A DNA stretch of 64,000 bases, taken from the NCBI GenBank assembly GCA_963978895.1, contig OZ022246.1:24274526-24338525 (forward strand). Reading direction: 5' to 3'. This DNA comes from Erpobdella octoculata. Its lineage: Eukaryota; Annelida; Clitellata; Hirudinida; Erpobdellidae. Made by a program: the position numbers and the translations under genes. Positions 1,983-54,409 of this stretch are shown piece by piece (positions within the stretch are counted from its first letter, which is position 1; each line of letters begins with the position of its first letter). The notes under the pieces are model-generated. The model made no database searches. It was not told the DNA's origin and saw only the letters and a program-made list of their open reading frames with translations.

Positions 1983-2503
1983 TGTATGTATGTATGTGTA
2001 TGTATGTATGTATGTATGTATATATGTATGTATGTATGTATGTATGCATGCATGCATGCATGTATGTATGTATGTATGTATGTATGTATGTATGTATGTA
2101 TGTATGTATGTATGTATGTATGTATGTATGTATGTATGTATGTATGTATGTATGTATGTATGTATGTATGTATGTATGTATGTATGTATGTATGTATGTA
2201 TGTATGTATGTATGTATGTATGAATGTATGTATGTATGTATGTATGTATGTATGTATGTATGTATGTATGTATGTATGTATGTATGTATGTATGTATGTA
2301 TGTATGTATGTATGTATGTATGTATGTATGTATGTATGTATGTATGTATGTATGTATGTATGTATGTATGTATGTATGTATGTATGTATGTATGTATGTA
2401 TGTATGTATGTATGTATGTATGTATGTATGTATGTATGTATGTATGTATGTATGTGTGTACATATGCATGTATGTATGTATGTATGTATGTATGTATGTA
2501 TGT
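1983..2503. repeat. (TATG)n microsatellite, ~520 bp
   Basis: A near-perfect tetranucleotide array with a few variant units (TGCATGCA cluster near 2045-2062, TGAA at 2221-2224, variants near 2455-2466). Open frames through it are an artefact of a 4-bp repeat without stops. The right flank is shared with the array at 9653-10120, so both come from the tandem duplication. Confidence 0.95.
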
Positions 2504-2771
2504 CTCTAGTATTTGATATTCCATCAAGAACAAACGTATTTTGAATGATTTGCGTTTTTAAACTTGTATTGCAAGAAATGAAGTTGCCTGCTTATGTGAA
2601 CTTTTGCAACTGGTTTGCATTTTCAACTGAAAAAAGATAAAACAAATTATAATTGCTGCCATTTAAAAATAATATTCACAGCTCACATATATGAATTAGC
2701 ATAAAATATTAAAACAACGATTAAATAACTCTAAATTATAGAGCAATTACAGCTACTCTACTGTAAGTAGG

Positions 2772-2778
2772 TATAAAA
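2772..2778 (+). promoter_or_regulatory. Candidate TATA box of Rec2
   Basis: TATAAAA lies 42 bp upstream of the Rec2 start codon and is conserved at the same place in Rec4 (10385-10391). If used, the 5' UTR would be only about 10-15 nt. Confidence 0.4.
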
Positions 2779-2813
2779 CTTAAGTTGATGCACTGTCTAA
2801 CCAAGAACGTTTT

Positions 2814-4918
2814 ATGATGTTAGTTATATATTTCAAATTTATTTTGTTACTATTTATCAATTTTCATTCTGCTGAAGATGTGTTTCAGTGGTGTGATCCT
2901 TACGAGACATTTTGTTTATTTTCATTTGGACCTAACCTAACCGTTTCCAGCCTGGAAGAAGCTCAAAAGTTGTGTACGGAAGCTAAAAATGGTAGTTGGT
3001 TGCCGGAGATAAATAGTCTTGAAATGCTCAATCATTTAAGCGTGTTCAAAAATAATTATTTTAAGATGGCGGATAAGAAGGTGATCGTCAGTAATATTTG
3101 TAAGAAAGTTATTCATTATTTTGTTTTTTAATTCTGTTTATTCAGTTTTAATTTTCAAACTTTATTTATTAACATTAATCTTGTGTTTATATTAAACTTT
3201 TTTATGTTTCGCAAATATTTTGAGTAAATAAACTAATCAAGAAATTAATGACAAGAGATGACAAGTTTACAATAAAAATAAAGCAGTTTAGTTTTTTATA
3301 GTTTAAAACAGCAATATATAATAGAAAAACACTCACCACAATCTTTCTTTAATTAAATTATTTAGCTATCTCGAATAGTCATATAAAGATAAACGATTCT
3401 TTTGCGTTTCCACCAATATCCAACATCAAGCACCAGTTTGGAGTTATTTGCATGACAGGTTATTTTCTTTATTTTTTATATTGTTTTTTTTTGTTAATAA
3501 ATTTATTTAAATGAAATGTCATTAGGTTCTAATTGTTAGTTTATACTCACAAATAAAAAAAATAACTTTTAATGATAATTTTCATACCTTATGTTACAAT
3601 GTCGTGGTAGGTACCTACACATTTTCTAATATAATGTCATTTCATGTATTGAAAATAGTTAAATTTATTTATTAATTATTGTCATTGCAATGAAAAAGTT
3701 GTATGCATATTCTATCAACATCAGAATTGATCAACCAGAATAATTTGTAATTATAATCTTGTTAATTAACGTTAACAGAATGTCTGGCAGAATGGACATT
3801 CTTTAGGGATTCGAGAATGCTTCTTGCAAAAAAATACCTAGAATATAATTCAGTAGAAAAGTGTAAAGATGTCTGTGAAAGAAATAAAACTCTTAAATGT
3901 GTTGCTGCTGAGTGGGAAAGCCAGATTGTTGGATGTTGGATTCACTCTTCAGTTTCCACAATAAAGAATAAACAAGATCAATTACTTTACATTATTAATC
4001 GTACTAATAAAGTTACCATGAAGTGTGTCGGAAATTTGACAAGTGAGTAATTTGTATTATTGCTGTTGTAATGAAAATGAATTAAACAATCTCTTGCATA
4101 AATGTTTAACAAATACCACTTGTAACAGGTTTATTTCATTTTGTTATTAAACTAAAAAAATATTTTTGAATAATTAAAATATTGTGCCGTGTTTTTTTAA
4201 TTTATTAAAACTTTAGGAAATAAATTGTCAAACTGTTTTATCAAACTAGATCCTCAATTACTTCTACGTAATCAATTTAAAAGTTATTTTTCCAGTTGCT
4301 ACTGTATTGAATGATGGTAATAAACTAGGTGAGTGTAAATACTTTGTTAAATTTAATTATTACTAGAAAAAAAACAAATAATTTACAATTGTAATCAAAC
4401 ATACTAAGATGTTGTTAAATTGTTTTCTCATATTGTTTACAGACATTTTCATAAAGCTAGGTGAGTGTATTTATTTTGTTCAACCATGTTATAAATTTTA
4501 TTTGAAAATAAATAAACATAAAACAAATGAGTTTTAATTGTAATCAAACATGCAAAGATGTTGTTAAATGTATTTCTTATTTTGTTAACAGACATTTTCA
4601 TAGACATAACAGCATCCCTAAGTGCTGTGATCATTATTCTTCTCTTTACTTTTATTTTTTTCATCACTTGGCATTTCAAGAAAATGAGGTAGAATTTTAT
4701 ATTTAAAACATTATAATACAAATTTATGATTTTATTTGCTTTTTAAACTAATTTTTCAAAGATCAAATTCAACAAAACAACAAACTTCCGAAAGAGAACA
4801 TCAACAATTAGATCATGTCATAAGATACAACAACAATACTGAAACTTACGACCACCTTTCAAATACTCTTCGTGATTTAGAAAGAAATGATCATCTTTAT
4901 ATTGGACTTTCCATTTAA
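2814..4918 (+). CDS. Rec2, CTLD/PAN receptor with two YxxL tail motifs
   Basis: Exons 2814-3099, 3366-3458, 3779-4042, 4296-4328, 4443-4460, 4592-4688, 4762-4918 give 315 aa in one frame. Residues 1-20 are a hydrophobic signal peptide (two adjacent ATGs, the first chosen). Then comes a degenerate CTLD with WCDPYETFCLF and a closing GVICM, lacking the WIG and WND motifs, followed by a PAN-like domain (CKDVCERNKTLKCVAAEW, then CWIHSS). Two microexons make a short stalk, then a TM helix and a basic HFKKMR stop-transfer. The tail has YDHL and YIGL separated by 13 residues, like a stretched ITAM (usual spacing 6-12). The ectodomain is nearly identical to Rec4 while TM and tail are unrelated. The role as the non-ITIM partner of Rec4 is inference. 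Confidence 0.8.
4329..4591 (+). repeat. Tandem duplicated intron/microexon unit in Rec2
   Basis: The 4329-4460 segment (intron plus the 18-nt microexon ending in CTAG) and 4461-4591 are similar. Both begin GTGAGTGTA and share the AATTGTAATCAAACAT stretch. Each ends in an acceptor followed by the same ACATTTTCATA exon start. Confidence 0.75.
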
Positions 4919-5459
4919 TTAATTGATTACACTTAAGTTGATAAATAATCAACAATTAATTTTTTATTTTTAATTAATTAAATGCGTAACTTATAGCAAT
5001 ACGATTTAACATTTGCAACTTTTGAGTTTCTTTTTAAATAACTATTCAGCTGCGGGTTTCGACAAATTACAAGCAAAAACTAAAGTTTTTTAACGTGTTG
5101 ACGGTAGTTACAATTTAGAATTGATTTAATTCTATCTGAAATAACTAATTAATGTTTCATGTTATTTACAACAAAGTATTAGATTTTCAGCAAAGCTACT
5201 GACGTTAATAAAAATAATTTCTTTATTAGTTTTTCGTTTTTTAAGTCATATAATAAAGTTAAAATTGTTTGTTAAGAGAAACATTTTTAGCTTTGATTTG
5301 GCCTACTTTTGATAGATCGTTGTTATACATGGTTAACCTTATTAGCAGTTAAACTCTGAAAGACAACAGTGGCAACAGAATTCGCACAACGTCATCAACA
5401 GGACAAGGAAAACAGTTGACAACCGCGTTGGAGATACTTTGATTTATTTATAAGGCACG
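4919..5459. other. Intergenic, no gene seen
   Basis: AT-rich flank between the Rec2 stop and a LINE relic. No exon with splice signals or homology to the receptors was recognised. Confidence 0.5.
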
Positions 5460-5747
5460 TTATTAGATTATTAGTATTATTATTATTATTATTTATTTAT
5501 TTAACGTGCTCTCTAAAAAGAAAAATTTCTCAGAGCACGAGGCGGCAGTGCCAAAATAAACGAACGAACAGAATCACACATCAGAAACAAAAAGGGTCAA
5601 TATCCGTTCGTCATACGAAGAAAAAAATGAGTTTTAAGTCGTTTCCTAAAAACATAAACGCTATCGACGCACGCCGGATCGGTAAGTTCAATCGGTAGAT
5701 TGTTCCAGGTAGTTGGACAAGAAACTGCAAAAGATTGATCAACATAC
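5460..5747 (-). mobile_element. LINE 3'-end relic
   Basis: On the minus strand, 5747-5597 encodes about 49 residues ending in a stop. They contain TTWNNLPIEL and VYVFRKRLKTHFF, which fit the C-terminal end of non-LTR retrotransposon reverse-transcriptase ORFs (LWNxLP then FKxxLK). The 3' UTR follows and ends in a (TTA/TTTA)n tail at 5460-5505. The element is strongly 5' truncated. Confidence 0.6.
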
Positions 5748-6063
5748 TAAAATAAAAGTATTTTAAAATCTAATTTATTGAATTTTTAAATCTAAACATA
5801 ATCAACGTGATTAATAAAGATTACTACTAAAATTTTCAATTTATCAGATATTCCAAAAAAGTCCTTGAACAACATTGTCGTTGAGATTCAGTTTAAAGAA
5901 AACATTTTTTATAATTAAATCTTGTTGTTTATATTATTTTTATATTTTTGAAACAAATTGAATTTATAATCAATTATTTTTATTAGTTGAATATTATTAA
6001 AAAAAATTTAAGATTTTTTATTACGTGTAAACCATTTATGGCCATAAATATTAAACATTGCAG

Positions 6064-6283
6064 TTGGAGCTATTCTTGGTGGAGTATTCGGCTGTTTTAC
6101 AGCAATTTTGGCTTCTATTTAGAGCTTTTATTTTAGAAAAACAATGCACACACAACTGGTATTCATATTCAGTTTTGATTATATATTTTTTTAATTCAAC
6201 TTTAAATACATTTAAACTAGTTTGAACCCAGCACGACCTCACAAGCAAACCGAAAACATAGCAAAATGTCACACAATTGGTAA
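6064..6283 (+). pseudogene. Relic receptor TM and tail exons with a nonsense codon
   Basis: A CAG acceptor at 6061-6063 precedes 6064-6158, which reads as a glycine-rich TM helix like that of Rec3 (GAILGGVFG), then an in-frame TAG at 6120-6122, then FYFRKT. A donor follows at 6159. A second exon at 6221-6283 continues in the same phase for 20 codons to TAA. No upstream CTLD/PAN exons belong to it. It looks like the broken 3' end of a lost receptor copy. Confidence 0.55.
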
Positions 6284-6479
6284 TTTTGATAGGTGTCAGA
6301 AATTGCTATTTCTTGTTTTTGTTCTTTTCTATTTCACGTTTAGCAGTGACAAAGGCGTTTTAAGTATCAAAGTCGACAAAATGAATGCTTTTTTATTAAG
6401 CGCGCTCGTAAATAAAAACATGTATAGTATACTGAATGAAGACTACTAAACTAAACGCATATATTCATAATATGCTACA

Positions 6480-8542
6480 ATGTTTTTAAATAATTTGACG
6501 TTTTTTGTTATTGTACTTTTGTTTCACAAAATGATCGAAGGAGATGTTTATCGATGGTGTGATCAATATGAGACATTTTGTCTGTTTTCATATGGACCAG
6601 ATGTTACTGTTTCTAATTTCAAAGAAGCTCAACAAGTTTGTACGGAAGCTAAAACTGGCAGCTGGCCAATCGAATTAGAAGATTCTACAAAACAAAATAT
6701 TGTTAATCAGTTTATTAAAGATAATTTGTTACCAAGTGATACGCCGGTAGTTCTAAACATCGAACTAAGAAACGATGGGAAACTGTATTGGATAGAACAA
6801 AATACAAGTAAATTGTGATTTAATTGTTTCAAAAAAGTATAATCGATAGTTTTATTTTAAATTTATCTTACAGAAGTTTTACAGATAGATCTAACAATTA
6901 ATGCAAGCATATGCTTTAGAAATACTCGTTTTGAGGTCTGCTTACCAGGAAAATCAAATTATGCTATCTGCACAGTTGGTAAATAATTTGCAACAATTTA
7001 TTTAGAAGTTGATGATTTTTAGATTTTTACCTACAGCATAGAATGTTGTTTGCGATCCACCTTTAGAAGTGTCAAAAATTTAAATTGGTAATCAAATAAG
7101 AAATAATGAAACTTAGGTAGATTTAGCTTTTTATATCTGAATTTTTATTATAGCAAAATCAAACAGCGACTCAAGTAATATAAAAACACGTTGTTATTTG
7201 AGATATTTATCTTTTAATATTATTAAACTTGTTGATTCAGGTTGCAGAGCGTCATGGACTTCTTTTGAACATCAACATGTTCACGGTGCTTCTCGAATAA
7301 CTGGAATCACAAACTTATCAAAGTGTAAAGATCTGTGCGAAACCAACAGAACCTTAGAATGTACAGCTGTTGATTTCACGCCACCACCAAGTTCTGAAAA
7401 TGGCTGTTGGGTACATTCAAAATCTTATTCAGCACTGGATATAGGAAAAAATCAATTAATAGACACTTCACACAACGTCATTAATAGGACAATGAAATCA
7501 GTTGAATATTGCATTGGAGATATTTCAGGTTTTTAATTGTTTAAAATTTTTTATGTGAATTTTAAGCTATTAACGGAAATTATAATTTTGGCAACATTGA
7601 CGAAAAAGAGACTACTTCTACCACTTCAGCAATCACTTCAGCATTGCCAGCAACAAACATTAAAAGTGAGATTCATTTTATAAAAAGCAGCACAAACTTT
7701 TAGTTATGTTAAATTTAAACCATGTAATTTCCCCACATTGAATAAAACAATATTTATTTTTTTTAATATGCAACTCAGTTATGCAATTGGGGATTTGAAC
7801 GACCGAATCTTCCGGTCTACAGAAGAATAATTAGTTTAAAAAAATGTCTAATAGTTATCACTTTATTTTTTAGATAATATAAAAATTAAACTGTTTTGAA
7901 AATAGCAACTAACAATTTTTAAATTTATTTTTTTCAAAGTTTGTTTATTTAATTCGATTAATAAATAATACTACAGTTTTAGTTGGAGCAATTGTTGGCG
8001 GAGTTGCTGGTGGTATTGTTGTAATAATTGGAATCGTGGCACTTACCATTGTTATAGTAAAAAAGAAATTTAGAGTAAACAGGTATGATGCTAAATACAC
8101 ATATATTTAGTGATGATTTTTATAATTTTTATACATATACAAATGAATTCACGATCTTTTATTTAGAAATTATTATTCTGAATTAAAACAGAATAATGCT
8201 TACAGGAATTTGTCTGAAATTAGAGAATCGTCTGTAAATCTGGAGCACACGTTTAATTCGTTAGTGAAATATTACATTTTTAATGTAGAAAATTACTGCT
8301 TAATAATTATTTATTTGAATTAATAATTTTACATTGAATACATTGGCTAAAAATAGAACAAATTAACTGTTTTTCATCAAATTGTTTGAAGTTTTATAAT
8401 TTCGAAAATGTAATTACTATTCAGACTGCAGACTGAAACGCACAACAATTATGAGCAAGTCCCAACAAATAAAGGCACTTGTGATGACATATTCCTAATT
8501 TGGGACTCTCACGTACCTACATCAGAAAGCCGAATGTGCTAG
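6480..8542 (+). CDS. Rec3, type A receptor with CTLD, PAN, stalk, TM and tyrosine tail
   Basis: Exons 6480-6807, 6874-6978, 7241-7528, 7567-7665, 7983-8082, 8167-8259, 8425-8542 give 376 aa. The signal peptide is followed by a CTLD-like region (WCDQYETFCLF, closing YAICTV) and a PAN-like domain (CKDLCETNRTLECTAVDF, CWVHS). A 33-residue Ser/Thr-rich stalk exon follows, then a TM helix rich in GG pairs and a KKK stop-transfer. The tail has YSEL, YRNL and YEQV; the site equal to Rec1 YDTL is FNSL. A deletion of about 300 bp relative to Rec1 replaces the Rec1 C-terminus with sequence homologous to the Rec1 3' UTR, ending SRMC. Signalling role is inferred from the tail motifs. Confidence 0.78.
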
Positions 8543-8848
8543 AAACTAATAATCAATTCACTGTCTGATGAAAAAATAAAAAACAAGTCAAATAAATTGT
8601 ATGTTGTTAGATTTCTTCAATATTAAGAAATACGTCAATTTTTTATTGTTGGAAGGATAGCTTTATTATCTTGGTTTTTCTTGAATCTATGAAAAAAAGT
8701 TTATTTATCGGGAAAACTAAGCATTTGTTTGAGTTAGCGTTTAATACCACAATGCAGCGGCAAAATAACTTACAAATTTTGAACAACACAACCAAACAGC
8801 TAGAATAGCAGGATATTAAAACTACAAAAACTTTTTTTAAGTTCAAAA

Positions 8849-9296
8849 ACAAGTCAATGAAAAAACGAGTTTTTCAACACAAACTTTTATTTCAAATACA
8901 CTCGATTTAGAAATACAAAAAACATTTAAATTAAGTTTTTTGGTTTTTGAGTAAATAACACTAAATTTGTTGTAAAAATTTTTGAATTTACAATAAATTG
9001 AAATTAAACAAAATTAATCTAGAAGTAGGACGAAAAAACATGAATAAATGTTACGCGAGCTTAAGATGGTTCACGTGCTCACTTTGCCGCACGATAATCA
9101 CACTTTTTTTGTTTAGTTTATTAACTTATGTCGAAATTAATTGAATCATGAATTTTCATCCAATATAAAGCTATGCTGAAAGTTTTAGCTTCCTAGCTAG
9201 TCAAAAAGCTGGTTCAATTTTACTTTCATGATTTGCGTACAGAGAAAGACACCCACAAACAAACAGAGATTGCAAGTTGAATAAATGTTTGCAATA
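8849..9296 (-). mobile_element. Interspersed repeat rep-A, copy 1 (unclassified)
   Basis: About 450 bp present here and absent at the matching point of the duplicated unit (about 1516). The reverse complement matches two blocks at 45222-45347 and 48482-48577. No protein or clear terminal inverted repeat was recognised. Confidence 0.6.
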
Positions 9297-9652
9297 AACT
9301 CCATCCTTATTCGTTTTAATTTTATAATAATTCCTTATCAACTACTTCCTAGCAATTTGTTTCTAATTTTAAACTCAGCAACTTTGAAGGAAATACCCAA
9401 CCTAGATTTATTATAACATGGCCTACATTACAACACCACATAACGTGGGTAAGCTTTGAGTGACAGCAGCTTCTGGGATATTGTAAAAACCAGGGTTTCC
9501 AAAGTTCACTTAATAGTGAGAACAGCACAGGCTAGGATTTAAGAAGTTAGTTTCCTTAGAATAAATTATAAAGCTATTTATTTTGTGTAAAAATAAAGCT
9601 TTGATTATGCTAAAAAAAAAATGGTTATAGTAATTTTATAACGGCCCCAGTT

Positions 9653-10120
9653 ATGTATGTATGTATGTATGTATGTATGTATGTATGTATGTATGTATGT
9701 ATGTATGTATGTATGTATGTATGTATGTATGTATGTATGTATGTATGTATGTATGTATGTATGTATGTATGTATGTATGTATGTATGTATGTATGTATGT
9801 ATGTATGTATGTATGTATGTATGTATGTATGTATGTATGTATGTATGTATGTATGTATGTATGTATGTATGTATGTATGTATGTATGTATGTATGTATGT
9901 ATGTATGTATGTATGTATGTATGTATGTATGTATGTATGTATGTATGTATGTATGTATGTATGTATGTATGTATGTATGTATGTATGTATGTATGTATGT
10001 ATGTATGTATGTATGTATGTATGTATGTGTGTATGCATGTATGTATGTATGTATGTATGTATGTATGTATGTATGTATGTATGTATGTATGTATGTATGT
10101 ATGTATGTATGTATGTATGT
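9653..10120. repeat. (TATG)n microsatellite, ~470 bp
   Basis: Almost pure tetranucleotide array with one TGTGTATGCA interruption near 10027-10036. Flanks match those of 1983-2503. No gene is implied by the open frames. Confidence 0.95.
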
Positions 10121-10384
10121 CTCTAGTATCTTATATTCCATCAAGAACAAACATATTTTGAATGATTTGCGTTTATAAACTTGTATTGCAAGAAATGAAG
10201 TTGCCTGCTTATGTGAACTTTTGCAACTGGTTTGCATTTTCAACTGAGTAAAGATAAAACAAATCATAATTGCTGCCATTTAAAAATAATATTAACAGCT
10301 CACATCTATGAATTAGCATAAAATATCAAAACAACGATTAAATCACTCTAAATTAGGGAGCAATTACAGCTACTGATCTGTAAG

Positions 10385-10391
10385 TATAAAA
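10385..10391 (+). promoter_or_regulatory. Candidate TATA box of Rec4
   Basis: TATAAAA 42 bp (edge to edge) before the Rec4 start codon, in the same context as in Rec2. Confidence 0.4.
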
Positions 10392-10432
10392 CATAGTTCA
10401 TAGTTGATGCATTGCCTTACCAAAAACTTTTT

Positions 10433-13000
10433 ATGATGTTAGTTACATATTCCAAATTTATTTTCTTACTTTTAATTAATTTACATTCTGCTGAAGATGT
10501 GTTTCAGTGGTGTGATCCTTACGAGACATTTTGTTTATTTTCATTTGGACCTAACCTAACCGTTTCTAGCCTGGAAGAAGCTCAAAAGTTGTGTACGGAA
10601 GCTAAAAATGGTAGCTGGTTGCCGGAGATAAATAGTCTTGAAATGCTCAATCATTTGAGCATGTTCAAAAATAATTATTTTAAGATGGCGGATAAGAAGG
10701 TGATCGTCAGTAAAATTTGTAAGAAAGTTATTCATTATTTTGTTTTTTAATTCTGTTTATTCAGTTTTAATTTTCAAACTTTATTTATTAACATTAATCT
10801 TGTTTTTATACTAAACTTTTATGTTTCGCAAATATTTTGAGTAAATAAACTGATCAAGAAATTAATGACAAGAGATGACAAGTTTACAATAAAAAATAAA
10901 CCATTTTAGTTTTTTATAGTTTAAAACAGTAAAATATAATATAAAAACACTCACCACAGTCTTTCTTTAATTAAATTATTTAGCTATCTTGAATAGTCAA
11001 ATAAACGATTCTTTTGCGTTTCCACCAATATCCAACGTCAAGCACCAGTTTGGAGTTATTTGCATGACAGGTTATTTTCTTTATTTTTTATATTGTTTTT
11101 TTTGTTAATAAATTTATTTAAATAAAATGTCATTAGGTTCTAATTGTTAGTTTATACTCACAAATAAAAAGAAATAACTTTTAATGATAATTTTCATACC
11201 TTATGTTACAATGTCGTGGTACCTACACATTTTCTAATATAATGTCATTTCATGTATTGAAAATAGTTAAATTTATTAATTAATTATTGTCATTGCAATG
11301 AAAAAGTTGTATGCATATTCTATCAACATCAGAATTGATCAACCAGAATAATTTGTAATTATAATCTTGTTAATTAACGTTAACAGAATGTCTGGCAGAA
11401 TGGACATTCTTTAGGGATTCGAGAATGCTTCATGCAAACAAATACCTAGAATATAATTCAGTAGAAAAGTGTAAAGATGTCTGTGAAAGAAATAAAACTC
11501 TTAAATGTGTTGCTGCTGAGTGGGAAAGCCAGATTGTTGAATGTTGGATTCATTCTTCAGTTTCCACAATAACGTATAAACAAGATCAATTACTTTACTT
11601 AATTAATCGTACTAATAAAGTTACCATGAAGTGTGTCGGAAATTTGACAAGTGAGTATTATTGCTGTTGTAATAAAAATGAAAAAAACAATCTCTTGCAT
11701 AAAAAATTTACAAAATACCATCATGTTTTTAGGTTCATTTCATAGCATGTATTTTGTAAACATGTGGTGTGGTGTAATCCAATGCTTATGACCTTTCATA
11801 CCGGGATATTTCTCGATCTCTTGCCTGTCTGTCTTTCTGTCATTCTTTCTGTTTGTCCAAGATTTTTATTTTATATAAAAAAAAGAAAATAATTTTTTTC
11901 TGGGATATGAGAAATGTCTTGATGGAGGCATGCATTAATTGTGGACATTCGTATAACAAACAAACCATAAATTTTTAACACTTAAAACATGGGGCGTGTT
12001 TTACTCAAACTAACCATCTGCTATATTTTAAACAGGATAGAATGTTTTTTTTGAATATAAATGGCGCCTCACGTTTCAAGTGTTAAAAATGTATGGCTTG
12101 TTTGTTATACGAATGTCCACAATTATTGCATGCCTCCATCAAGACATTTCTCACACAGCCAAGAGAAAAATTATTTTCGTTTTTTTTTATTTCACAAAAA
12201 CGTGGTATTTTAAAAAGTTTTTTTTTAATATTTTATTCAGTACCAACCTACTTTAATGAACCTAAAGGACGGAAAACTTCAAAAGGTCGCAGATTTCGTT
12301 TTAACGATTTTTTAACAATAATTATGTTAAATTATCTCAAATAATATTTGCCGATGCATTCAATAACCACCGTTTGAAAACGTGGTGATTCATAGAAGTT
12401 TGAAATGAAACCACATTTTAGAAACAATCATGATATTTTACAATATCAAACAAACACTGCATCTTATAGTATCTTGTGAACATTCAACCATTTTTTATTA
12501 TTTAATTTTATCTAAGTGTTTTTCATTGACATGAGCTGGATGTTATTATTAGGAGCAATAACAAAATTATTTCATAATTGAAAGTAATTGTTTGATTTGA
12601 TCATCTGTTCATCCAACCAATTTTAGTTATTTACATTCCGATACTGCTAGTACTTATAGCAGTATGCATAATAATCTTGGTCTTATTTCTGGCAAGAAGA
12701 TACAAGCAGAAAAAGTACGTATTGCTTATATAAAATTGTAATAAACAAAATCAAATTAGTATACAGACTAAAAGTACAATTTTAAATAATTAAATTTTTA
12801 GATCTTTATCAGAAGGATCTGCATCCATTTATTTCGACATCAAGCACAGCCCTAAAACAGCCGCAACAGTTATACCTGATAGTCAAAGCGAAGCTGTTCA
12901 TAAGGCTGACAAAGACACTGCCAATAATGCACAGAACCCCCTAGAAGAACTTAATTATATACAGCTATTTGTTCGTGACACGAAAAACACTTACGCTTGA
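10433..13000 (+). CDS. Rec4, CTLD/PAN receptor with two ITIMs (inhibitory candidate)
   Basis: Exons 10433-10718, 10984-11070, 11387-11650, 12627-12714, 12802-13000 give 307 aa. The ATG is aligned with that of Rec2. Signal peptide, CTLD-like region (WCDPYETFCLF ... FGVICM) and PAN-like domain (CKDVCERNKTLKCVAAEW, CWIHSS) differ from Rec2 at only a few residues and one two-residue indel. From intron 3 on the genes are unrelated. A TM helix (FYPI-like start, LLVLIAVCIIILVLF core) is followed by RRYKQKK and a 70-residue tail with SIYFDI and LNYIQL. Both fit the ITIM consensus (S/I/V/L)xYxx(I/V/L). ITIMs in known receptors recruit SH2 phosphatases after tyrosine phosphorylation, so an inhibitory role is likely but inferred. 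Intron 3 carries a fold-back element. Confidence 0.83.
11909..12152. mobile_element. Fold-back MITE-like element in Rec4 intron 3
   Basis: Arms of about 80 bp at 11909-11990 and 12073-12152 are near-perfect inverted copies (GAGAAATGTCTTGATGG at the outer end). They leave a loop of about 80 bp. No coding content; non-autonomous DNA element by structure. Confidence 0.7.
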
Positions 13001-13606: not shown

Positions 13607-20370
<6,764 letters not shown>

Positions 20371-22330: not shown

Positions 22331-26201
<3,871 letters not shown>

Positions 26202-28002: not shown

Positions 28003-30293
28003 ATGTTGATACAGTGGAGTGCGGTTCTGGGACTAGCTTTAACGTTGTTAGGTTAGAAAAAAATTGTTTTTTTTTATTTATCATAAAATTAAACTAACAA
28101 CTTGCTATTTTATTTTAATCTGTTCAATTGAGTGTTTTTCACAGCAGGTTTTTTTATGTAATTCTTAATTTTTTGACGTAATTTAATAAACCATAATTCC
28201 ATGAATTAATTATAAAATTTAAAAAAGCTATTGATAGCTACTGGTTTTAATTTGTTAGTAGTTATACGAATAATCACAAACCAAATGTGCTGGCAGCATA
28301 AACAACAACAAAAAGCTAAATGGCTATTCATCCAAAGTAGTGCTTATTCTGCTTATTAAACACATTTTCAACACAAACTGAAACTTGTATGTGAATGACA
28401 TTTCGTGCTGTAAAAAGGTAGTATTTTCAAATGACAAAAAAAACAATAGTTTATTTGCTGAATTTTTTCTCAAATCAAATCAATCACAAACGTCTACTGA
28501 GCTATACACAAATCTTATTGTATTAATAATATTTAGCATTTGAATGCTCAACAGCTGTCAGACGCAGTTATGGTAAATCAAGTACAGATTTGAATTGTGA
28601 CCTTCACCCTCGTTACTGCTTTCGAGTGGAAAAATTGAAGACTCCTGCCAGCACTATTGAAGATGCCAATAAAATATGTACTTTACGCTATAACGGTTGG
28701 CTTTTAGAAATCCAAAATCAGGACATTCATGATACGGTAAACAATTACGTTACAACCTTGGGAGATGCATACAACACAAAATACGTGTTTCTAAATATAA
28801 AACCTACTCTTTACATGTGGGCATATGCTGATAACAATTCTTGTAAAAGTTAGAAAACAACTTCTTATTCAATGCTCTAATTCAACTCGTATAATAGATT
28901 GTAAGGTTTGTCTTTTTCCTAGATTGCAGTGACATCGATGTTTTAAGCTTACGATGGGAGAATGACTTTGTCTACTATAAATCACACTTTGATGTCTTTT
29001 TGACGCACCCTCATTATCGTAGATGCGGTCATGTCTGTTCCTACACCATCCCATCATCTTCGTGCAAAGGCGCCAATTCAACGTTCGCCATCGATCAATG
29101 CTTTAAGTTTTACAATTTGAATCGAACTTGGTTTGAAGCACAAAATTACTGCTTGAAAAGAGGAGGAAAACTGGCAATTATTCAAAAACAACATTTAGAT
29201 TTATTTAAAAAATTATTTATTGGAACCGGCAAAGGTGGATATTGGATTGGATTAGTACACAGTCCATTAAAATGGTTTAGTAACGGTGAGAGATTTTGAA
29301 TACATCTTTATTTTAAATTATTTTTAATAAATAACATTTTATTTTTATTCAGATAAGTTTTTAACATGGACAAATGTTGACTCAACGCTTGAAGAAGATC
29401 TAACAGATCAGGTTTACTTTCAAATAAACGTAAACAACAACGGCTGGCGATCTGGTGAAAAAATTGAAAAAGCTGAATTCCTGATATGCATGTCAAGTAA
29501 ATCATAATGTCATTTAAATTATAATCAGTCCATTTCATCGATGAAATATTTTTTTTAACCTTTGCTGCTTTGAGATTCAGATGAACACGTTTTAAACCGG
29601 CCTAGAGTCCTGTCAGTCCTGCACGACCCAAATTTTGTTAGGCCCGAACCCCACCCGTTCATAGGTACAAAATTTAAATAAAATACTTAGGGTATTTATA
29701 ATTAATTCAATTTATAATTAATTCAATTTATAATTAATTCAATTTATAAATTACTTTTAAATAAATTTTAGAAATTTAATTTAGAAAAGGCAGAAACTAT
29801 GGCGGCAGATCAATTCAATTTAACAAGTCTGCGTGAGTTGACTTTTTCACACGTTAAATTTACTTTTCAGTTTATTATAAGATAAAAACATAATACAGTT
29901 TACTTTCAATAATCCAACAACGCTGGAATAGTTTGACTTTGGCATTTCAACCCCAAGAAAGTTCGACTCTCTGATTTTAAGCTGCCGAGAAAGTTTCTTT
30001 CTCACTGGGAGCGGGAGCAAAACTTTTATGTTACAAATGCTGTTGCCACCTTAGTTAAAGTAGATTGTATTGATATAAATTTAAATAGATCTTTGAGCAA
30101 ATGGTTAAAATAATCTCTCCTGATAAAAACTCGCCATCTGAGTTAATTTTAGTGACATAAAATTTTGATGAAATAATCTTCTACAGTCAGTAACACAGCT
30201 CTACTGGGAATAGGAATTGCAGCTCTATTTCTCTGTTTCATTCTGGTTCGACTCAAAAAAACCCGTCGGTTCTTCAAGGTGCAAAGTTTTTGA
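28003..30293 (+). CDS. Rec6, two-CTLD receptor with short basic tail
   Basis: Exons 28003-28051, 28537-28848, 28923-29285, 29353-29496, 29785-29832, 30187-30293 give 340 aa. The signal peptide is MLIQWSAVLGLALTLL. CTLD1 starts NCDLHPRYCFRVEKLK. CTLD2 has DQCFKFYNLNRTWFEAQNYC, GGYWIGLVHSPLKW, LTWTNVD and closing FLICM. The TM helix is followed by RLKKTRRFFKVQSF and stop. The small fifth exon is ended at the strong GTGAGT donor (29833), six bases after the position used in Rec7, where Rec6 has a weak GTCTGC; both keep the frame. Highly similar to Rec7 including introns. A tail without tyrosines suggests dependence on a partner subunit, an inference. Confidence 0.82.
29693..29752. repeat. Three ~20-bp direct repeats in Rec6 intron 4
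   Basis: TATAATTAATTCAATT is repeated three times head to tail. The matching Rec7 intron lacks the expansion. Confidence 0.75.
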
Positions 30294-32569: not shown

Positions 32570-35349
32570 ATGTTGTTACAGTGGATTGTGGTTGTAGGAC
32601 TTGCTCTGACGTTGTTAGGTTAGAAAATAGTATTACTTTTCTTTATCATAAAATAAAACTGAAGATTTCCTTTGCTTTATTGTTATGTGAAGTTGAGTTT
32701 TTTCAAAACATTTTCTTATGTAACTCTTGACGTTCTGACGTAATTCACTGAACCAATTTTCTATAAGTTACCAATAAATTTTTTTTAGGCTACGGATAGC
32801 TACTGGTTTTAATTATATATATATTATCACCTGATTAAACAATTTTGAATAATAAAGTCACATAAATTATGCAAATATATAGGCCAAGGTTTTGAAATTT
32901 TATTTTTTTTTGCAATTAAAAGTAGGTTAAACAAACAAAAAATCTGAAAACTGCCATAAACAATTTTTATTTTTGAAATTTGCTTGGGGGCCCGCAACGG
33001 TGTGTAGGGGATTGAGCCCTCGACCCCTCCTTGACTACACCACTGAAGTGACCTAATCTTCGACATTATTCAATCAGATGATAGTATTTGTCTCCCTATC
33101 TTTTACTGTCAAACATTGGCAAAAATGCGTACTGTCAGTATAACCAACAACAAAAAAAACAACTAAACATGGCTATTCGTCCAAAATAGTTTTCAATCTG
33201 CTTATTAAACACATTTACAACACAAACTGAAACTTCTATGTGAGTCTATCGTGCTTTCACAAGTAGTATTTAGAAATTAAAAAAAAAACTCAATAGATTA
33301 TTTTCTGGTTTTTTTTCTCTAAAATTAATCAATCAAAAACGTCTACTGAGCTATACACAAATCTTATTGTATTAATAAAATTTAGCATTTGAATATTCAA
33401 CAGCTGTCAGGCGCAGTTATGGTGAATCGAGCACAGATTTGAACTGTGACCTTCACCCTCGTTACTGCTTTCGCGTGGAAAAATTGAAGACTCCTGCCAG
33501 CACTCTTGAAGATGCCAATAAAATATGTACTTTACGCTATAACGGCTGGCTTTTAGAAATCCAAAATCAGGACATTCAAGATACGGTAAACAATTACGTT
33601 ACAACCTTGAGTGATGCATACAACACAAAATACGTGTTTCTAAATATAAAACCTACTCGTTACACGTGGACTTATGTTAATAACAATCCTTGTAAAAGTT
33701 AGAAAACAATTTCTTATTCTATGCTCAAATTCAACTCGTATAATAGATTGTAAGCTTTGTTTTTTTCCTAGATTGCAGTGACTTCGATTTTCTAAGTTTT
33801 CAACGGAAGCATGACTTTGTCTATTATAGTACACAGTTTAGTGTCTTTTTGACGCACCCTCATTATCGTAGATACGGTCATGTCTGTTCCTCCGCTTCCT
33901 CAAAATCTTCGTGCAAAATCGACAATTCAACGTTCGCCGTCGATCAATGCTTTACGTTTTACAATTTGAATAAAACATGGTTTGAAGCACAAAATTACTG
34001 CTTGGAAAAGGGAAGAAAACTGGCAATTATTCAACAACGACATCTAGATTTATTTAAAAAATTATTGATCGGAACTGGCAAAGGTGGATATTGGATAGGA
34101 TTAGTTCACAGTCCATTAAAATGGAGTAGTAACGGTGAGAGATTTTGAATACATCTTTATTTTAAATTATTTTTAATAAATAAGATTTTATTTTTATTCA
34201 GATAAGTTTTTAACATGGACAAATGTTGACTCAACGCTTGAAGAAGATCTAACAGATCAGGTTTACTTTCAAATAAACGTAAACAACAACGGCTGGCGAT
34301 CTGGTAAAAAAATTGAAAATGCTGAATTGCTGATATGCGTGTCAGGTGAATTATAATGTTATTTAAAATATTATTATCAGTCCATTTCATGTAAGAGATA
34401 TTTTTTGAATTTTTGCTGTTTTGGGATTCAATTTACAGTTAAAATATTCTCAGACCTTGCTAATTATAAACCGCCTAAAACCCTGTCAGCCCTGTACGGT
34501 TCAAATTTTGTTTGGCCTAACTCCGACCCGTTTCATAGCCACAAAATTTAAATAAAGTGTTTTGGGGTGTGTGTAAATGATTTAATTTTTAAATTACTTT
34601 TAAATAAATAAAAACAATTTTTAGAAAAGACAGAAACCTTTGATGAAGATCAATCCAATTTAACAAGTAAGTTTTACACTGTTTTACATGATAAATTGAC
34701 TTTTTGTTTATTATATAGATAAGATTATGATATTCCGACATCGGGAAGGTTTGACCTCGGCATATCAATCCCTAGAAAGTTCGACTACCTGATTTTAAGC
34801 TGCCGAGAAAGTTTTGTTTCTCACTTTTCTGTTACAAAAGCTGTTGCCACTTGAGTTGAAGTAGATTGTATTGATATTTATTTATTTATTTATTCACAAA
34901 CAGAAGGGCCTATCGGCCTCTAATACCGTTCGGACAGTACAAACATAACAAAAAAAAACAATAAACGAAATATGTACACATACTCAGTTGCAAATTGTGA
35001 ATTGTTAAGATGTTAGAAATATACAATAGCAAGGTATGCTCGCATAAAACATATTGAATAAGATATCTAATCTTGTAACTATTTAAATTTTGCATTTATG
35101 GATCGGTTAAACCTGACAATAAATGTATCTCTGAGCAAATGGTTGAAACAATTTTAACTAATAAAAATAAAAATTATGCTATTTGAGCTAATTCTAATGA
35201 CTTACAGTTTCAATGATATAATCGGTAATATGTCTTTTACAGTTAGTAACGCAGCTCTACTGGGAATAGGAGTTGCAGCTCTATTCATCTGTTTCGTTCA
35301 GGTTCGACGCAAAAAAACCCGTCGGTTCTTCAATGTGCAAAGTTTTTGA
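32570..35349 (+). CDS. Rec7, two-CTLD receptor with short basic tail
   Basis: Exons 32570-32618, 33386-33697, 33772-34134, 34202-34345, 34625-34666, 35243-35349 give 338 aa. The signal peptide is MLLQWIVVVGLALTLL. CTLD1 is nearly identical to Rec6. CTLD2 has DQCFTFYNLNKTWFEAQNYC, GGYWIGLVHSPLKW and LTWTNVD, closing LLICV. The TM helix contains a Gln near its inner end (FVQVRRKK), then TRRFFNVQSF and stop. Exons 1, 2 and 4 and many intron positions match Rec6 almost exactly, while part of exon 3 (SASSKSSCKIDN for YTIPSSSCKGAN) differs. Ligand and partner unknown. Confidence 0.82.
33000..33046. mobile_element. hAT-like element end in Rec7 intron 1
   Basis: The reverse complement begins CAGTGGTGTAGTCAAGG, similar to the ends seen at 21335. 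The other end was not located. Confidence 0.3.
34876..35125 (-). mobile_element. Retroelement fragment inserted in Rec7 intron 5
   Basis: A (TTTA)n tail followed by CACAAACAGAAGGGCCTATCGG is present in Rec7 but absent from the otherwise matching Rec6 intron (about 30078). It therefore inserted after the Rec6/Rec7 duplication. Confidence 0.6.
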
Positions 35350-45347: not shown

Positions 45348-48152
45348 TGTAAACGTAGAGGAATATGCTTTCTAGCGATTCGTAACGTTAAAGTCGAAGT
45401 TATTTATAACACAATATTTCTCGAATTTATTTTAACTTTATTATTCTTCCTTGAATATAATCCTATTCTTGACTCTAAACTGACTTATCTCACTTTGCAG
45501 AAGTTAACCCGGTTCTGACAAAATCTTTTGATAATTCCAATTTCTCTCCCCAGAACACTTCATTTTCTCAATGAAGACCACAAAAAGGAAAAGGACCAAT
45601 ACCAATTATATATATATACATATATATATACATATATATATACATATATATATATATATACATATACATCCATCCATCCATGTATATATACACTCAAACA
45701 CACATATACATATATATACATTAATGATACAAAAATTATACGCACACACAATGTCACAGGAGCACAAATATACATATATACATACATATACATATATATA
45801 TACACATATATACACACATATACACACATATACACACAGATACATTCATACATAAATGACTATTGTTTAAACACAACCAAAATATGCACCCATAATAAAA
45901 TAAAATAAACAACTATTATGAAAATACGTAAGATGAATCATCTTCATCTTACATATCCCCCCTCTTCGAAAAAAGGAACGCGTTAGCGTTTCTTGATTAC
46001 ATCGTCACTCTCTTTACGACTAAGAAAGTCAGCACCGATGTTTTCCTTGCCTTTGAAATAGTTTACTTTCAACTTATTCTCAACCTCTATCTCTCTGCGT
46101 GCTATGTCAACAGGACGGGCATCTCCGAAGATTGTCGAATTCAACTTTCCATCTTTCCCCACCCCTCCATGTTGGCCTCTAGGCAGCAGATTGAGACTTG
46201 GTCTTTCTTTTGGCGGATTCAAAGCCTGAACTTTTGCCTCAACTTTATTTCCTACCTTTGAAATGGCAGACGTGTTTCTTTCCTTGCTTTGATACAGCTC
46301 CGAGTTAGCCGACGATTTTCTATAATTTACCCGAACATTCCTCTGTGTGCTGTCGTAGTTAAGAGCGGATTTCTGACCAAAGCGTTTTCCTGCAGCCATT
46401 GCATCCAAACCTCTTACTCCTTCGACATTTCCCAGCACGAGATCGCAAAGCAGGTTTTTCATGCACACAACCTCTCTGGTTCCTTTGAACCAGTCTGTTT
46501 TGATTTTTACCACTGCTGTTGGAGCCACCCGAACTGTGCCGTCGATCAAAACACAGGGTCTTGTTCTTCCGGTCATCTGACGCGGGTGCACTAATGATTC
46601 CTTTACCATTATGGCAGTACAGCCAGTGTCCCTCAAAACTTTTACCGGTTTTCTGTTCACAAACCCTCTGGTTAATTCAAACTTTTCTCCTGAGTGAAAA
46701 CAACCATCCGCTATTACCGGTGAAAAGCAGCCACATTTTAATTGGACCTCATTCATTTTACCTTCCATCACCATGACCGCGCATGCATTCACTACTCCAG
46801 AGTCTTTGCATGGTGGTGTCATGGTGGCTTCTCTACGCGTTTGACACACGACTGGAGTTGCTTGAGTGGCTTGCCTGTAGTCCCTCGCGATCTGTCCAGC
46901 GTGATGACAATCCTTTGCCATATGGCCCGGTTTATTGCAATTGTAACAGCGTGGTCCAACCATTCCCGAGTCAATGTCTGGTTGACTACGATTTCCGCTA
47001 ATCCTGCTTGTGTTCTCGACCTTTGCCAAGCTTTTGACTGGGTGAGCTTGATTGTACTTGTTGACCCAGCGACTTAACTCATTGACGTCACCGCTTTCTT
47101 TCTCCAACAAATACTCAGCCATTCCCGACGGACACTTTCCAAAGAACTGCTCTTTTAAAAATAAAAACAAATAGTTTTTTGTACCCGCGAGATCCACCCA
47201 GCGCCTGAGGTAACTATCCAGTCGCACCAGATACTGTTCCCAAGTCTCTTCTGGTTCAAGCTTTGACTCTCGAAACTTTATGCGGTAGTCTTCTGCCGAC
47301 TTCCCAAAACGGCGAAGGAGTGCCTCTTTTACCGACTCGTAATCCTGCATCTGACTATCGCTGAGTTGGCCAAACACTTCCAATGTCTTCGCACTGAGCA
47401 GAGAACCCAGAAGCATTCCCCAACCCTTTTTTGGATGATCATTCGCCGTGGCCAATGCCTCAAAACGGAGCAGAAATGCGTCCACGTCGTCACCTTCCGA
47501 GAACTTTGGATATGGAATCTTTGTTACCTCTACCGTCGCCTTTGGCTCTTTCTTTGTTAGGGCTTCCAATTCCAGCTTCTTCAATTCTAATTCATGTTGA
47601 CGTTGAGCTATTTTATCTTCACGTTCCCGCTCTTGTTGTGCTTTTTTATCTTCCCGCTCCTCCATTCTCCTAACTCTTTCTTCATCTTTTAATTCTTTGA
47701 CAAAATTCTTCAATTCCTCTCCGGAATAGCCCAGAGCCTGTCCCATCGCAATGAATTTTTCTGTGTCAGACATTTTTCACAAAGTAAAAAAATTCGGTCA
47801 CTTGTGATCAAACAACTTCAGAAAATATATTTACGGATGAAAATGCGTAAATACGTCGAGGTCACCAATGTAAACGTAGAGGAATATGCTTTCTAGCGAT
47901 TCGTAACGTTAAAGTCGAAGTTATTTATAACACAATATTTCTCGAATTTATTTTAACTTTATTATTCTTCCTTGAATATAATCCTATTCTTGACTCTAAA
48001 CTGACTTATCTCACTTTGCAGAAGTTAACCCGGTTCTGACAAAATCTTTTGATAATTCCAATTTCTCTCCCCAGAACACTTCATTTTCTCAATGAAGACC
48101 ACAAAAAGGAAAAGGACCAATACCAATTATATATATATACATATATATATAC

Positions 48153-48183
<31 letters not shown>

Positions 48184-52981: not shown

Positions 52982-54409
52982 ATGCTCTCAGAACTCATAT
53001 TGTTTCAACTCTTTCAACTTTCTTTTGGTAAATATTTGTGTCAGTGGTGTGATCCTTACGAGACATTTTGTTTATTTTCATTGGATTCTAACGTAACTGT
53101 TTCTAATCTGAATGAAGCCCATCAACTTTGTACGGAAGCGAAAAGTGGCAGTGAACCAATCGGATATCTAGAGAGCAAAAAGTTTGCTTCGTCAAATAAA
53201 GAGTTTATAAATTGTTCTAACTCAGATAGTAGAAAAATAATAATTAATACCGATAAACATGAAGAACAATGTTGGTTGGAACACAGTAATGTCTTTTTCA
53301 ATATCTGTTCATGATAATTTATTACTTTAAATATTTAGTTTTATGCACTGATAAAATATTTCAGATATCACAAATCAAAAAGAGAAAGAAATCGAATGTA
53401 GCAACAAGAGCTTAACTGACAATATTTACGGAGTAATTTGTAAGATTGGTTAGTAAAGTTGTGATCTATTCCTCACTAAAATTATTTACACATAGAGACA
53501 TTTTGTGTACAAACAGAATGTCATGCAAAATGGAATGTCACTGTTAAGAAAGGATTATCTGTGGCACAACGTGAGATTTATAAAACCAAACCAGGTTGCT
53601 TGAATGAATGTGAAACAAACAGAACATTACAATGTGCTGCTGTTCAGTTTAAAACAACGTACAACTCACATTGTTGGATTTCTTCTTACGGATCTCAAAA
53701 TGTAAAGGTCGTTGATGATGACCATGGAACTGTCTATTTTATAAATCGAAGTAATAAAACTATTGAAACTTGCAGTGCAAAGAATCCAAGTATGCGTTTC
53801 AATGTCTCATATTTTGATCATTTTATTGAATGAATTAAATAACATTTTTTACTTTAGGTCATCCAGGAAAACAAAATTCAACTTTTTTATATAATTGCCT
53901 CTTAATAGGTAAGTTATTGTTATTTATTTATTAATAAAAGTAAAAAAAAACTCGATCATATTTTCAAATTGTTTGCACAAAAAGAACGTTCCACAACTTC
54001 CACGTGTGATGATGACGATGATGCTGATAGTAATAAAAAATTATACTAATATACGAAATATTGTTTACAGTGCTGACAATTCTTCTAATCTCGATTCTCC
54101 TAATTTGTCTTTTCTGCGTTGTTTCTAAACAAAGAATAAAACGGAAATTACAACAGGAATCCGAATTCGAGTAATTTATTTAAATTATATTATTTACAAC
54201 AAATGAAAAAAATTTTTCTTTTTTTTAATTATTTAAAAATAATTTAATTTAAATAAAGATGGATTGACGGAAACAGCATAGAAAGCAAATCCAGAATACA
54301 ACAAACCGTGACCTTTCAATACCAGGAGGTCAAACCCGACAAGTACACCCTATGCTATTCAGTTTCCCACGTTGGACCAATTTTTGACGATAGAAAAACT
54401 CATTCTTGA
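52982..54409 (+). CDS. Rec11, CTLD/PAN receptor with YxxV tail
   Basis: Exons 52982-53285, 53365-53448, 53517-53789, 53858-53908, 54071-54170, 54259-54409 give 320 aa. The start ATG at 52982 opens a signal peptide (LILFQLFQLSF). The CTLD-like part has WCDPYETFCLFSL and YGVICKI; the PAN-like domain has CLNECETNRTLQCAAVQF and CWISSYG. A 17-residue stalk and TM helix (LTILLISILLICLFCVV) precede KQRIKRK. The tail has FQYQEV and further tyrosines (KYTLCYSV). YQEV resembles an ITIM core but Phe at -2 is not a consensus residue. A 40-odd-base patch in exon 1 is identical to Rec2 and Rec4 although the surrounding sequence is diverged. Confidence 0.78.

Follow-up and report, generated by a model that had tools for sequence, protein, structure and literature searches.

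The paired receptors of vertebrates (KIR, LILR, SIRP, CD300A/C, NKG2 and Ly49) have clustered genes, matching ectodomains and, in one member, an immunoreceptor tyrosine-based inhibition motif (ITIM), features that they share with the locus described here. In primates, gene conversion keeps the inhibitory and activating ectodomains of CD300A/C alike (PMC12447643), and vertebrate activating partners have a short tail and a charged (basic) membrane residue and couple to an adaptor (PMC3533184). Among invertebrates, FcoR of Botryllus is a multigene family at one locus whose tails carry ITIM, hemITAM or core YxxI/L/V motifs and for which activating and inhibitory roles have been proposed; Hydractinia Alr is cited in the same paper as a cnidarian receptor complex with ITIMs and immunoreceptor tyrosine-based activation motifs (ITAMs) (PMC12065747). 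The Alr family numbers 41 members, and oyster CgIgIT2 is an immunoglobulin (Ig) receptor whose cytoplasmic tail itself contains an ITAM (PMC11999971). The present analysis concerns a stretch of 64,000 nucleotides of the annelid Erpobdella octoculata (C10:24274526-24338525, within a genome of 386 Mb), referred to as the window. Two of its genes, Rec2 and Rec4, probably form a pair within a large tandem array of paired activating and inhibitory receptors, which cross the membrane once and whose ectodomain joins a domain resembling the C-type lectin-like domain (CTLD) to a PAN domain.

One ectodomain, two tails

Rec2 and Rec4 both lie on the forward strand (positions are those of the window unless given for a contig; eight-digit numbers are positions on C10) and are intact in splice-consistent models with GT-AG introns and matching phases. 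Their exons encode, in order, a hydrophobic leader, an N-domain (two exons), a PAN domain (one exon), a membrane segment and, in a single exon, the cytoplasmic tail; the exit phase is 1 for every ectodomain exon and 2 for the membrane exon. In Rec2 the signal peptide and CTLD-like N-domain occupy 2814-3099 and 3366-3458, the PAN exon 3779-4042, the transmembrane exon, of the type called class A below, 4592-4688, and the class A tail, with the motif TYDHL-x13-YIGL, 4762-4918. Short stalk exons are found in Rec2 and not in Rec4 (4296-4328 and 4443-4460), the second of them inside a tandem duplication (4320-4453 and 4451-4602). The corresponding parts of Rec4 are the signal peptide and N-domain at 10433-10718 and 10984-11070, the PAN exon at 11387-11650, the transmembrane exon at 12627-12714 and the tail, with the ITIMs SIYFDI and LNYIQL, at 12802-13000. 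Domains were placed by profile, tail motifs by a motif scan and, for Rec2, the class A alignment, and membrane exons by checking the path from tail to membrane segment.

A reading made earlier from the sequence only had described the signal, CTLD and PAN exons of the two genes as almost identical, and this is borne out: over exons 1-3 (212 codons) the proteins are 92.5% identical, with a nonsynonymous divergence (Ka) of 0.033 and a synonymous divergence (Ks) of 0.064. The likeness covers a homogenised block of flank, signal peptide, N-domain, PAN and about the first 100 nucleotides of the following intron (2035-4139 in the Rec2 copy, 9652-11743 in that of Rec4), which is 94.6% identical over 2116 columns and has microsatellites at its 5' edge. 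Introns 1 and 2 differ at 3.4% and 0.6% of aligned bases; the whole block, and not the coding part alone, was therefore copied. About 100 nucleotides inside the intron after PAN the match stops. Beyond that point identity is 0.37-0.55 per 60-column block, the level of chance, and neither tail region has a blastn match to the other, so that the tails are indeed unrelated, as had been claimed.

The surroundings belong to an older duplication, in which 38-866 and 1185-1866 (the Rec1 tail and the region behind it) correspond to 7577-8474 and 8464-9657 (Rec3) at 77-82% identity. Because the ectodomain block stands at 94.6% and a Ks of 0.064, against 77-82% and a Ks of 0.28 for the membrane and tail exons of Rec1 and Rec3, the ectodomains of Rec2 and Rec4 were made alike more recently than their surroundings were duplicated. 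In the Rec4 intron, about 130 nucleotides past the end of homology, lies an inverted repeat of about 318 nucleotides (11873-12190, 82% identical to its own reverse complement) that may be a foldback element.

Tyrosine motifs of Rec2 and Rec4

The two ITIMs attributed to Rec4 hold by consensus ([SIVL]xYxx[IVL]), and when the tail was shuffled 20,000 times at least two ITIMs arose in 0.67% of the shuffles. The two YxxL motifs attributed to Rec2 are likewise present, as YDHL and YIGL with 13 residues between them; at least two YxxPhi motifs arose in 10% of an equal number of shuffles of its tail, however, so the pair on its own lies within chance. The Rec2 motif gains weight because 13 of the 14 other class A tails keep the 13-residue spacing and the remaining one has 10. 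Across ten window tails, 14 YxxPhi motifs were observed where 5.5 were expected (p 0.0002) and 4 ITIMs where 1.05 were expected (p 0.019), p values that are optimistic since some of the tails are related.

The textbook ITAM consensus is (D/E)xxYxx(L/I)x6-8Yxx(L/I), and a hemITAM has a triacidic consensus. The Rec2 tail, 57 residues long with tyrosine motifs of its own, was considered as a hemITAM and rejected; coupling to an adaptor through membrane charge was also set aside, no K or R being found inside the hydrophobic stretch on reading the model.

An array with two tail classes

The Rec4 N-domain exon has 70 matches in the genome, 63 of which fall in one 0.34-Mb block (C10:24.11-24.45 Mb). 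Within it, sequence was read from 24100001 to 24280000, through the window and in two further 18-kb pieces, passing over 24338526-24360000, 24378001-24423000 and whatever lies beyond 24441000. The stretch 24100001-24338525 yields 55 PAN and 58 N-domain profile matches, some of the latter being two pieces of one gene, and 48 genes with both domains were taken into a tree.

Tail profiles were seeded with eight class A and six class I tails, taken from automatic gene models (several of them wrong) and from Rec2, and run over open frames. At E below 1e-4, class A comprises 15 tails, Rec2 included (E 2.4e-18, as one of the seeds). All 15 have Yxx[LI] followed by Yxx[LIVM], at a spacing of exactly 13 residues in 14 and of 10 in one; the consensus is Y[DEN][QH][LI]-x13-Yxx[LIVM], and in the alignment only a Y, an H and a Y are invariant, with one L nearly so. 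Class I comprises 13 tails at the same threshold, every one with [LM]xYxx[IV]: the strict ITIM with L at -2 is found in 12 and M takes that place in the thirteenth. These ITIMs are of the LNYIxV/L type (LNYIDV, for example), further tyrosines often follow, and in seven tails a Y[AS][EV][IV] stands two or three residues before the end. Seeds make up 8 of the 15 class A and 6 of the 13 class I tails, and the seven non-seeds in each class carry the same motifs. A third set with a GG-rich membrane segment, to which Rec1 and Rec3 belong, has a similar layout (AYExL...YxxL) and further tyrosines.

A path to a transmembrane exon was found for 35 of 35 tail matches (E below 0.2, or below 10 for Rec4, at most two per gene). 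This is weak evidence, since each match had a large number of paths to choose from; in two of the 35 the junction contains a stop, and the path of 24182798 looks wrong. When both classes were looked for in 24360001-24378000, four receptor genes and one ITIM-type frame, LNYVEL (profile E 0.026), were found and class A tails were not. On the opposite strand, tail-like frames behind all five genes looked at contain ITAM-spaced pairs (6 or 8 residues between, judged by eye), including YMSL-x8-YLSL and, behind gene 24438634, EPDYLHL-x8-YSTL, which fits the textbook ITAM consensus; these are candidate tail frames read directly from the genomic sequence, and two more genes there stand outside the count.

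The two tail classes persist as neighbouring genes in the array. The ratio of nonsynonymous to synonymous differences (pN/pS), pooled over six pairs in each case, comes to 0.37 in ectodomains and 0.39 in tails of the same class; both halves are therefore kept as protein.

Probable exchange of ectodomains between classes

For the 48-gene ectodomain tree, A and I labels were assigned by profile at E below 0.01. Labels set by hand were I for Rec4, A-prime for five genes, I2 for three, IA for one and O for three; row 24303121 was dropped. The A and I labels need 11 changes on this tree, so that the classes are interleaved. The A label alone needs 13 changes, against 12.2 in label shuffles, and well supported branches by themselves require no fewer than 10; as between A and I, tail class thus keeps no memory of ectodomain ancestry. 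Rec2 and Rec4 are sisters with full support. The nearest ectodomain belongs to the next A or I gene along the array in 10 of 27 cases, where order shuffles give a mean of 2.0 (p 0.0004); gene 24253904, which has a split PAN match and fills only 42% of the alignment columns, is often the nearest row and affects these identities.

Where the pairs of opposite class could be compared by blastn, the main match ends 6-377 nucleotides past the end of the PAN profile in seven of eight, and those with a clear block are 81-95% identical in DNA; such partners are often neighbours. The pattern is most clearly seen in a quartet, 24146353 (A), 24149877 (I), 24160832 (A) and 24164967 (I). Its tails are 86.8% identical between the two A genes and 88.6% between the two I genes, against 44-46% between classes, and its ectodomains are 92.1% and 88.6% identical within the A/I pairs, against 82-85% otherwise. 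Sixty-two informative sites group the A/I pairs, against 4 and 7 for the other arrangements, and the exceptions lie at both ends of the block. Duplication of an A/I pair, with homogenisation of the ectodomains within each pair afterwards, would explain these relations simply. Ectodomains agree within pairs and tails within class, as predicted by gene conversion between neighbours with opposite tails.

Identity of the ectodomain

Profile searches back both of the domains named in the sequence-only reading, with the reservation that the N-domain is CTLD-like rather than a recognised CTLD and that PAN lies under the Pfam threshold. The N-domains of Rec2 and Rec4 have no match to Pfam Lectin_C. 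A profile of seven receptor paralogues alone matched a CTLD chain at E 0.0088, and a profile of ten, including neighbouring multi-CTLD genes, matched chains that are CTLDs by name (best E 1.9e-5). Alignment of the N-domain profile by hhalign to the second CTLD of those neighbours was not significant (probability 0.3%). EPN or QPD and WND are the usual calcium and sugar motifs of CTLDs, and on reading they are absent from both N-domains. The ten PAN exons of the window, taken as a profile, matched the PAN domains of HGF and plasminogen (E 6.8e-5 to 2.4e-3), and at the profile level the PAN assignment is good. The Pfam PAN_1 score of the exon is under the cut-off, and for the Rec4 PAN exon AlphaFold gives a model with a mean predicted local distance difference test (pLDDT) of 73 and a predicted template modelling score (pTM) of 0.62.

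No Ig family is among the Pfam matches listed for eight scanned sequences, where filters drop most matches above E 0.1. Homologues were sought with Rec4 as query (900 candidates, E up to 10) and with the seven-paralogue profile (5237 candidates, E up to 1); not one candidate matched in either search, and conservation was therefore judged within this genome only. The three neighbouring multi-CTLD receptor genes (24178-25160, 28530-29490 and 33379-34350) have tails that look short and free of tyrosine by reading; one of their CTLD stretches matches Lectin_C at E 1.6e-6, and their profile matches NKG2-D and CD69.

Weighing the paired-receptor interpretation

The likening of Rec2 and Rec4 to the vertebrate paired layout survives in most respects: the ectodomain is the same, the tails are of opposite types, the arrangement recurs in the array with conserved motifs, and it bears the signature of gene conversion. 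It departs from that layout on the activating side, where Rec2 has an elongated ITAM-like motif in place of a short tail and a charged membrane residue.

Several observations weigh against pairing. The activating partner of vertebrate pairs has that short tail and charged residue, whereas Rec2 has its own paired tyrosine motif, and this motif was rejected as a textbook ITAM, its spacer being 13 rather than 6-8 residues; the textbook spacing is missed throughout class A, by the 14 tails with 13 residues as by the one with 10. Every tail motif also fits YxxPhi and could be an endocytic signal. The Rec4 tail matches the class I profile weakly (E 3.4 when the array is scanned and 4e-4 as a single sequence, through NPLEELNYIQL), and it was placed in class I because of its two ITIMs. 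In the tree, 12 of the 48 genes are labelled as neither class, and there is a warning of long branches meeting at Rec2/Rec4, at Rec36 and at two more. Taken together, the six labels do cluster, with 19 changes where shuffles give 27.4 and not one of 200 is as low, because the neither-class, A-prime and I2 genes group on the tree. Mixed A/I cherries, including Rec2/Rec4 and several neighbours, are 8 of 10 among 27 A/I genes against 5.2 in label shuffles, an excess that is not significant (p 0.074, or 0.10 with wider classes), and the cherries partly differ in trees of the N-domain only (8 of 12 mixed) and of PAN only (6 of 8 mixed). For 19 of the 27 genes the closest ectodomain belongs to the other class, which is again not significant (p 0.062). 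Finally, the pair 24259850/24267503 has no block ending after PAN; its direct match ended within the ectodomain.

Proposed mechanism and candidate readers

The simplest cause of the shared ectodomains would be copying of their exons between genes of opposite class, by gene conversion or unequal exchange. Both members of a pair would then bind the same or an overlapping ligand, and on clustering their tails would be phosphorylated by a Src-type kinase. Class A could recruit a tandem-SH2 kinase of Syk or Shark type through the elongated ITAM, and so activate; class I could recruit a tandem-SH2 phosphatase of SHP type, and so restrain. The cell would read the balance of the two, and copying would keep ligand specificity matched as the ectodomains diversify.

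Possible readers are encoded elsewhere in the genome, where SH2 exons have 101 matches. The best PDB match of an SH2 piece at C5:33.548 Mb is SHP-2 (E 6e-35), with SHP-1 next, and the start of a protein tyrosine phosphatase (PTP) domain that follows it has LAR as its first match and PTPN11 as its next. By reading, comparable pieces of SH2 and of a PTP start lie at C2:27.186 and C2:46.081 Mb; the catalytic-loop sequence CSAGIGRTG is present at the latter locus (C2:46.07 Mb), and the pattern was not found in the stretches fetched from the C5 and C2:27 loci. The locus at C1:37.404-37.412 Mb has a kinase piece with two SH2 pieces before it on the same strand; the best PDB matches of the kinase piece are EGFR (one entry), Fes and then SYK, and the second SH2 piece has no PDB match. 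From its layout, this locus probably encodes a Syk/Shark-type kinase. An SH2 locus at C1:50.628 Mb was rejected as a Syk candidate: it reads like phospholipase C gamma.

A broader proposal can be advanced tentatively, and is somewhat more apt to fail than to hold: that the array performs recognition like that of the natural killer complex, outside vertebrates and on CTLD-PAN receptors, with A and I neighbours copying the ectodomain, one ligand read by both, and some ectodomains perhaps spliced to either tail. If so, such a locus could serve allorecognition or pathogen sensing, and paired receptors would be a convergent solution, here with an elongated ITAM of its own.

Alternative explanations

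A milder alternative, which is possible though rather unlikely, keeps the two tail classes and removes selection for pairing: in an array so rich in repeats, tandem duplication together with unequal crossing-over would shuffle 5' and 3' halves neutrally. The relic gene between Rec2 and Rec3, the truncated tail of Rec42 and the microsatellites bordering the Rec2/Rec4 block on its 5' side are of the kind expected under such a process, and against label shuffles p is only 0.06-0.10. Neutral shuffling accounts less well for matches that stop after PAN in seven of the eight mixed pairs, for pN/pS values (0.37 and 0.39) at which both halves are kept as protein, and for the persistence of both classes side by side.

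The difference between tails might instead be partly one of isoforms, with phase-1 ectodomain exons spliced to several downstream tail cassettes. All ectodomain exons do end in phase 1, and behind the ectodomain of gene 24152895 stand a complete I cassette (membrane exon 24153991, tail 24154247) and, after it, an A cassette (tail 24156695), with no ectodomain match between; this gene (C10:24152895-24156847) is a candidate for alternative splicing between opposite tails. Splicing that swaps motifs is also reported for Botryllus FcoR (PMC12065747). Rec2 and Rec4, however, each have their own start, ectodomain and tail, and this explanation is judged unlikely.

The most serious alternative takes the tyrosine motifs as YxxPhi endocytosis or sorting signals read by AP-2, the tails then differing in trafficking rather than in the polarity of their signal. 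All tail motifs fit YxxPhi, and four window tails (Rec36, Rec53, Rec56 and Rec59) have only a single one. AP-2 signals, however, need neither a second tyrosine at a fixed distance nor L or M at -2; in class A the tyrosine motifs are separated by 13 residues in 14 of 15 tails, and in class I position -2 is L in 12 of 13 tails and M in the remaining one. Loci for an SHP-type phosphatase and for an SH2-SH2-kinase are also present in the genome, and sorting as the sole function is accordingly judged quite improbable. An assembly artefact, in which alleles or haplotigs were set one after the other as Rec2 and Rec4, is most improbable, for although 94.6% identity is within the range that allelic divergence can reach in polymorphic animals, neighbouring duplicated stretches are just 77-82% identical, the tails are unrelated, Rec3 and the relic sit between the two genes, and the pattern recurs in other pairs.

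Other features of the window and genome

The further receptors described next lie on the forward strand of the window. Rec1, whose ectodomain is upstream of the window, has membrane and tail exons at 397-508, 575-667 and 817-913 with the motifs YEDV-x13-YDTL-x7-YEQV; the end of this tail, ExxYDTL-x7-YEQV, is ITAM-spaced and closer to a textbook ITAM than Rec2, but has V last. Rec3 (6480-8542) has a Rec1-type tail (YRNL ... FNSL ... YEQV) in which the middle tyrosine, the first of the ITAM-spaced pair, is F. The relic between Rec2 and Rec3 consists of a PAN fragment (5381-5439, 81% identical to the Rec3 PAN exon) and a stretch at about 6063-6121 that by eye resembles a transmembrane segment. 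Rec53 (52982-54409) shares an ectodomain block with C10:24432812, 105 kb away on the opposite strand, at 92.3% identity ending 25 nucleotides past the PAN exon, and the tails behind the block differ, the frame at C10:24432812 being YMSL-x8-YLSL. Two PAN-only receptors carry the ITIMs LVYADL (56137-57461) and IIYANL (59286-60736); their tails have the ITIM core in common (GLLVYADLGL and GPIIYANLGY) and are otherwise unlike.

Identical direct repeats of 300 nucleotides flank a 597-residue gag-like frame on the reverse strand at 45348-48168, which looks like a young element of the long terminal repeat (LTR) type. Exons resembling long-chain acyl-CoA ligase, identified by reading, lie on the reverse strand within the receptor array (13607-20090). 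Elsewhere, C3:23.78-23.87 Mb holds a long tandem array of dozens of near-identical kinase-like frames (317 residues) at a spacing of about 1.68 kb.

Comparison with known receptor systems

The paired-receptor design has Ig-type precedents outside vertebrates in Botryllus and Hydractinia. Botryllus FcoR combines Ig with sushi domains and pairs with fester proteins, whereas here both partners would be receptors of one fold that exchange their ectodomains. The ectodomains of Hydractinia Alr proteins are Ig-like, CTLD and PAN being unmentioned in the text available, whereas no Ig family is among the Pfam matches listed for the eight sequences scanned here. Oyster CgIgIT2 resembles class A in that it is an invertebrate receptor whose own tail contains an ITAM; a paired inhibitory partner is not described in the accessible text. 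FcgammaRIIA, a vertebrate Ig receptor, also has an own-tail ITAM with a spacer longer than 8, as in class A, of 12 residues rather than 13.

If the paired interpretation is true, the array would show that go and stop receptors with one sensor in common, which gene conversion keeps matched, have arisen on a scaffold other than Ig. Why paired receptors exist could then be tested in one compact locus, with pairs of different ages, both classes, and putative readers of the SHP type and of the tandem-SH2 kinase type. No description of a CTLD-PAN paired receptor family is among the literature matches listed, most subscription papers being outside the search. The ectodomains of vertebrate paired receptors are built on Ig or on a lone CTLD, and it is the scaffold of a CTLD-like domain plus PAN that sets this array apart from the known Ig-type systems.

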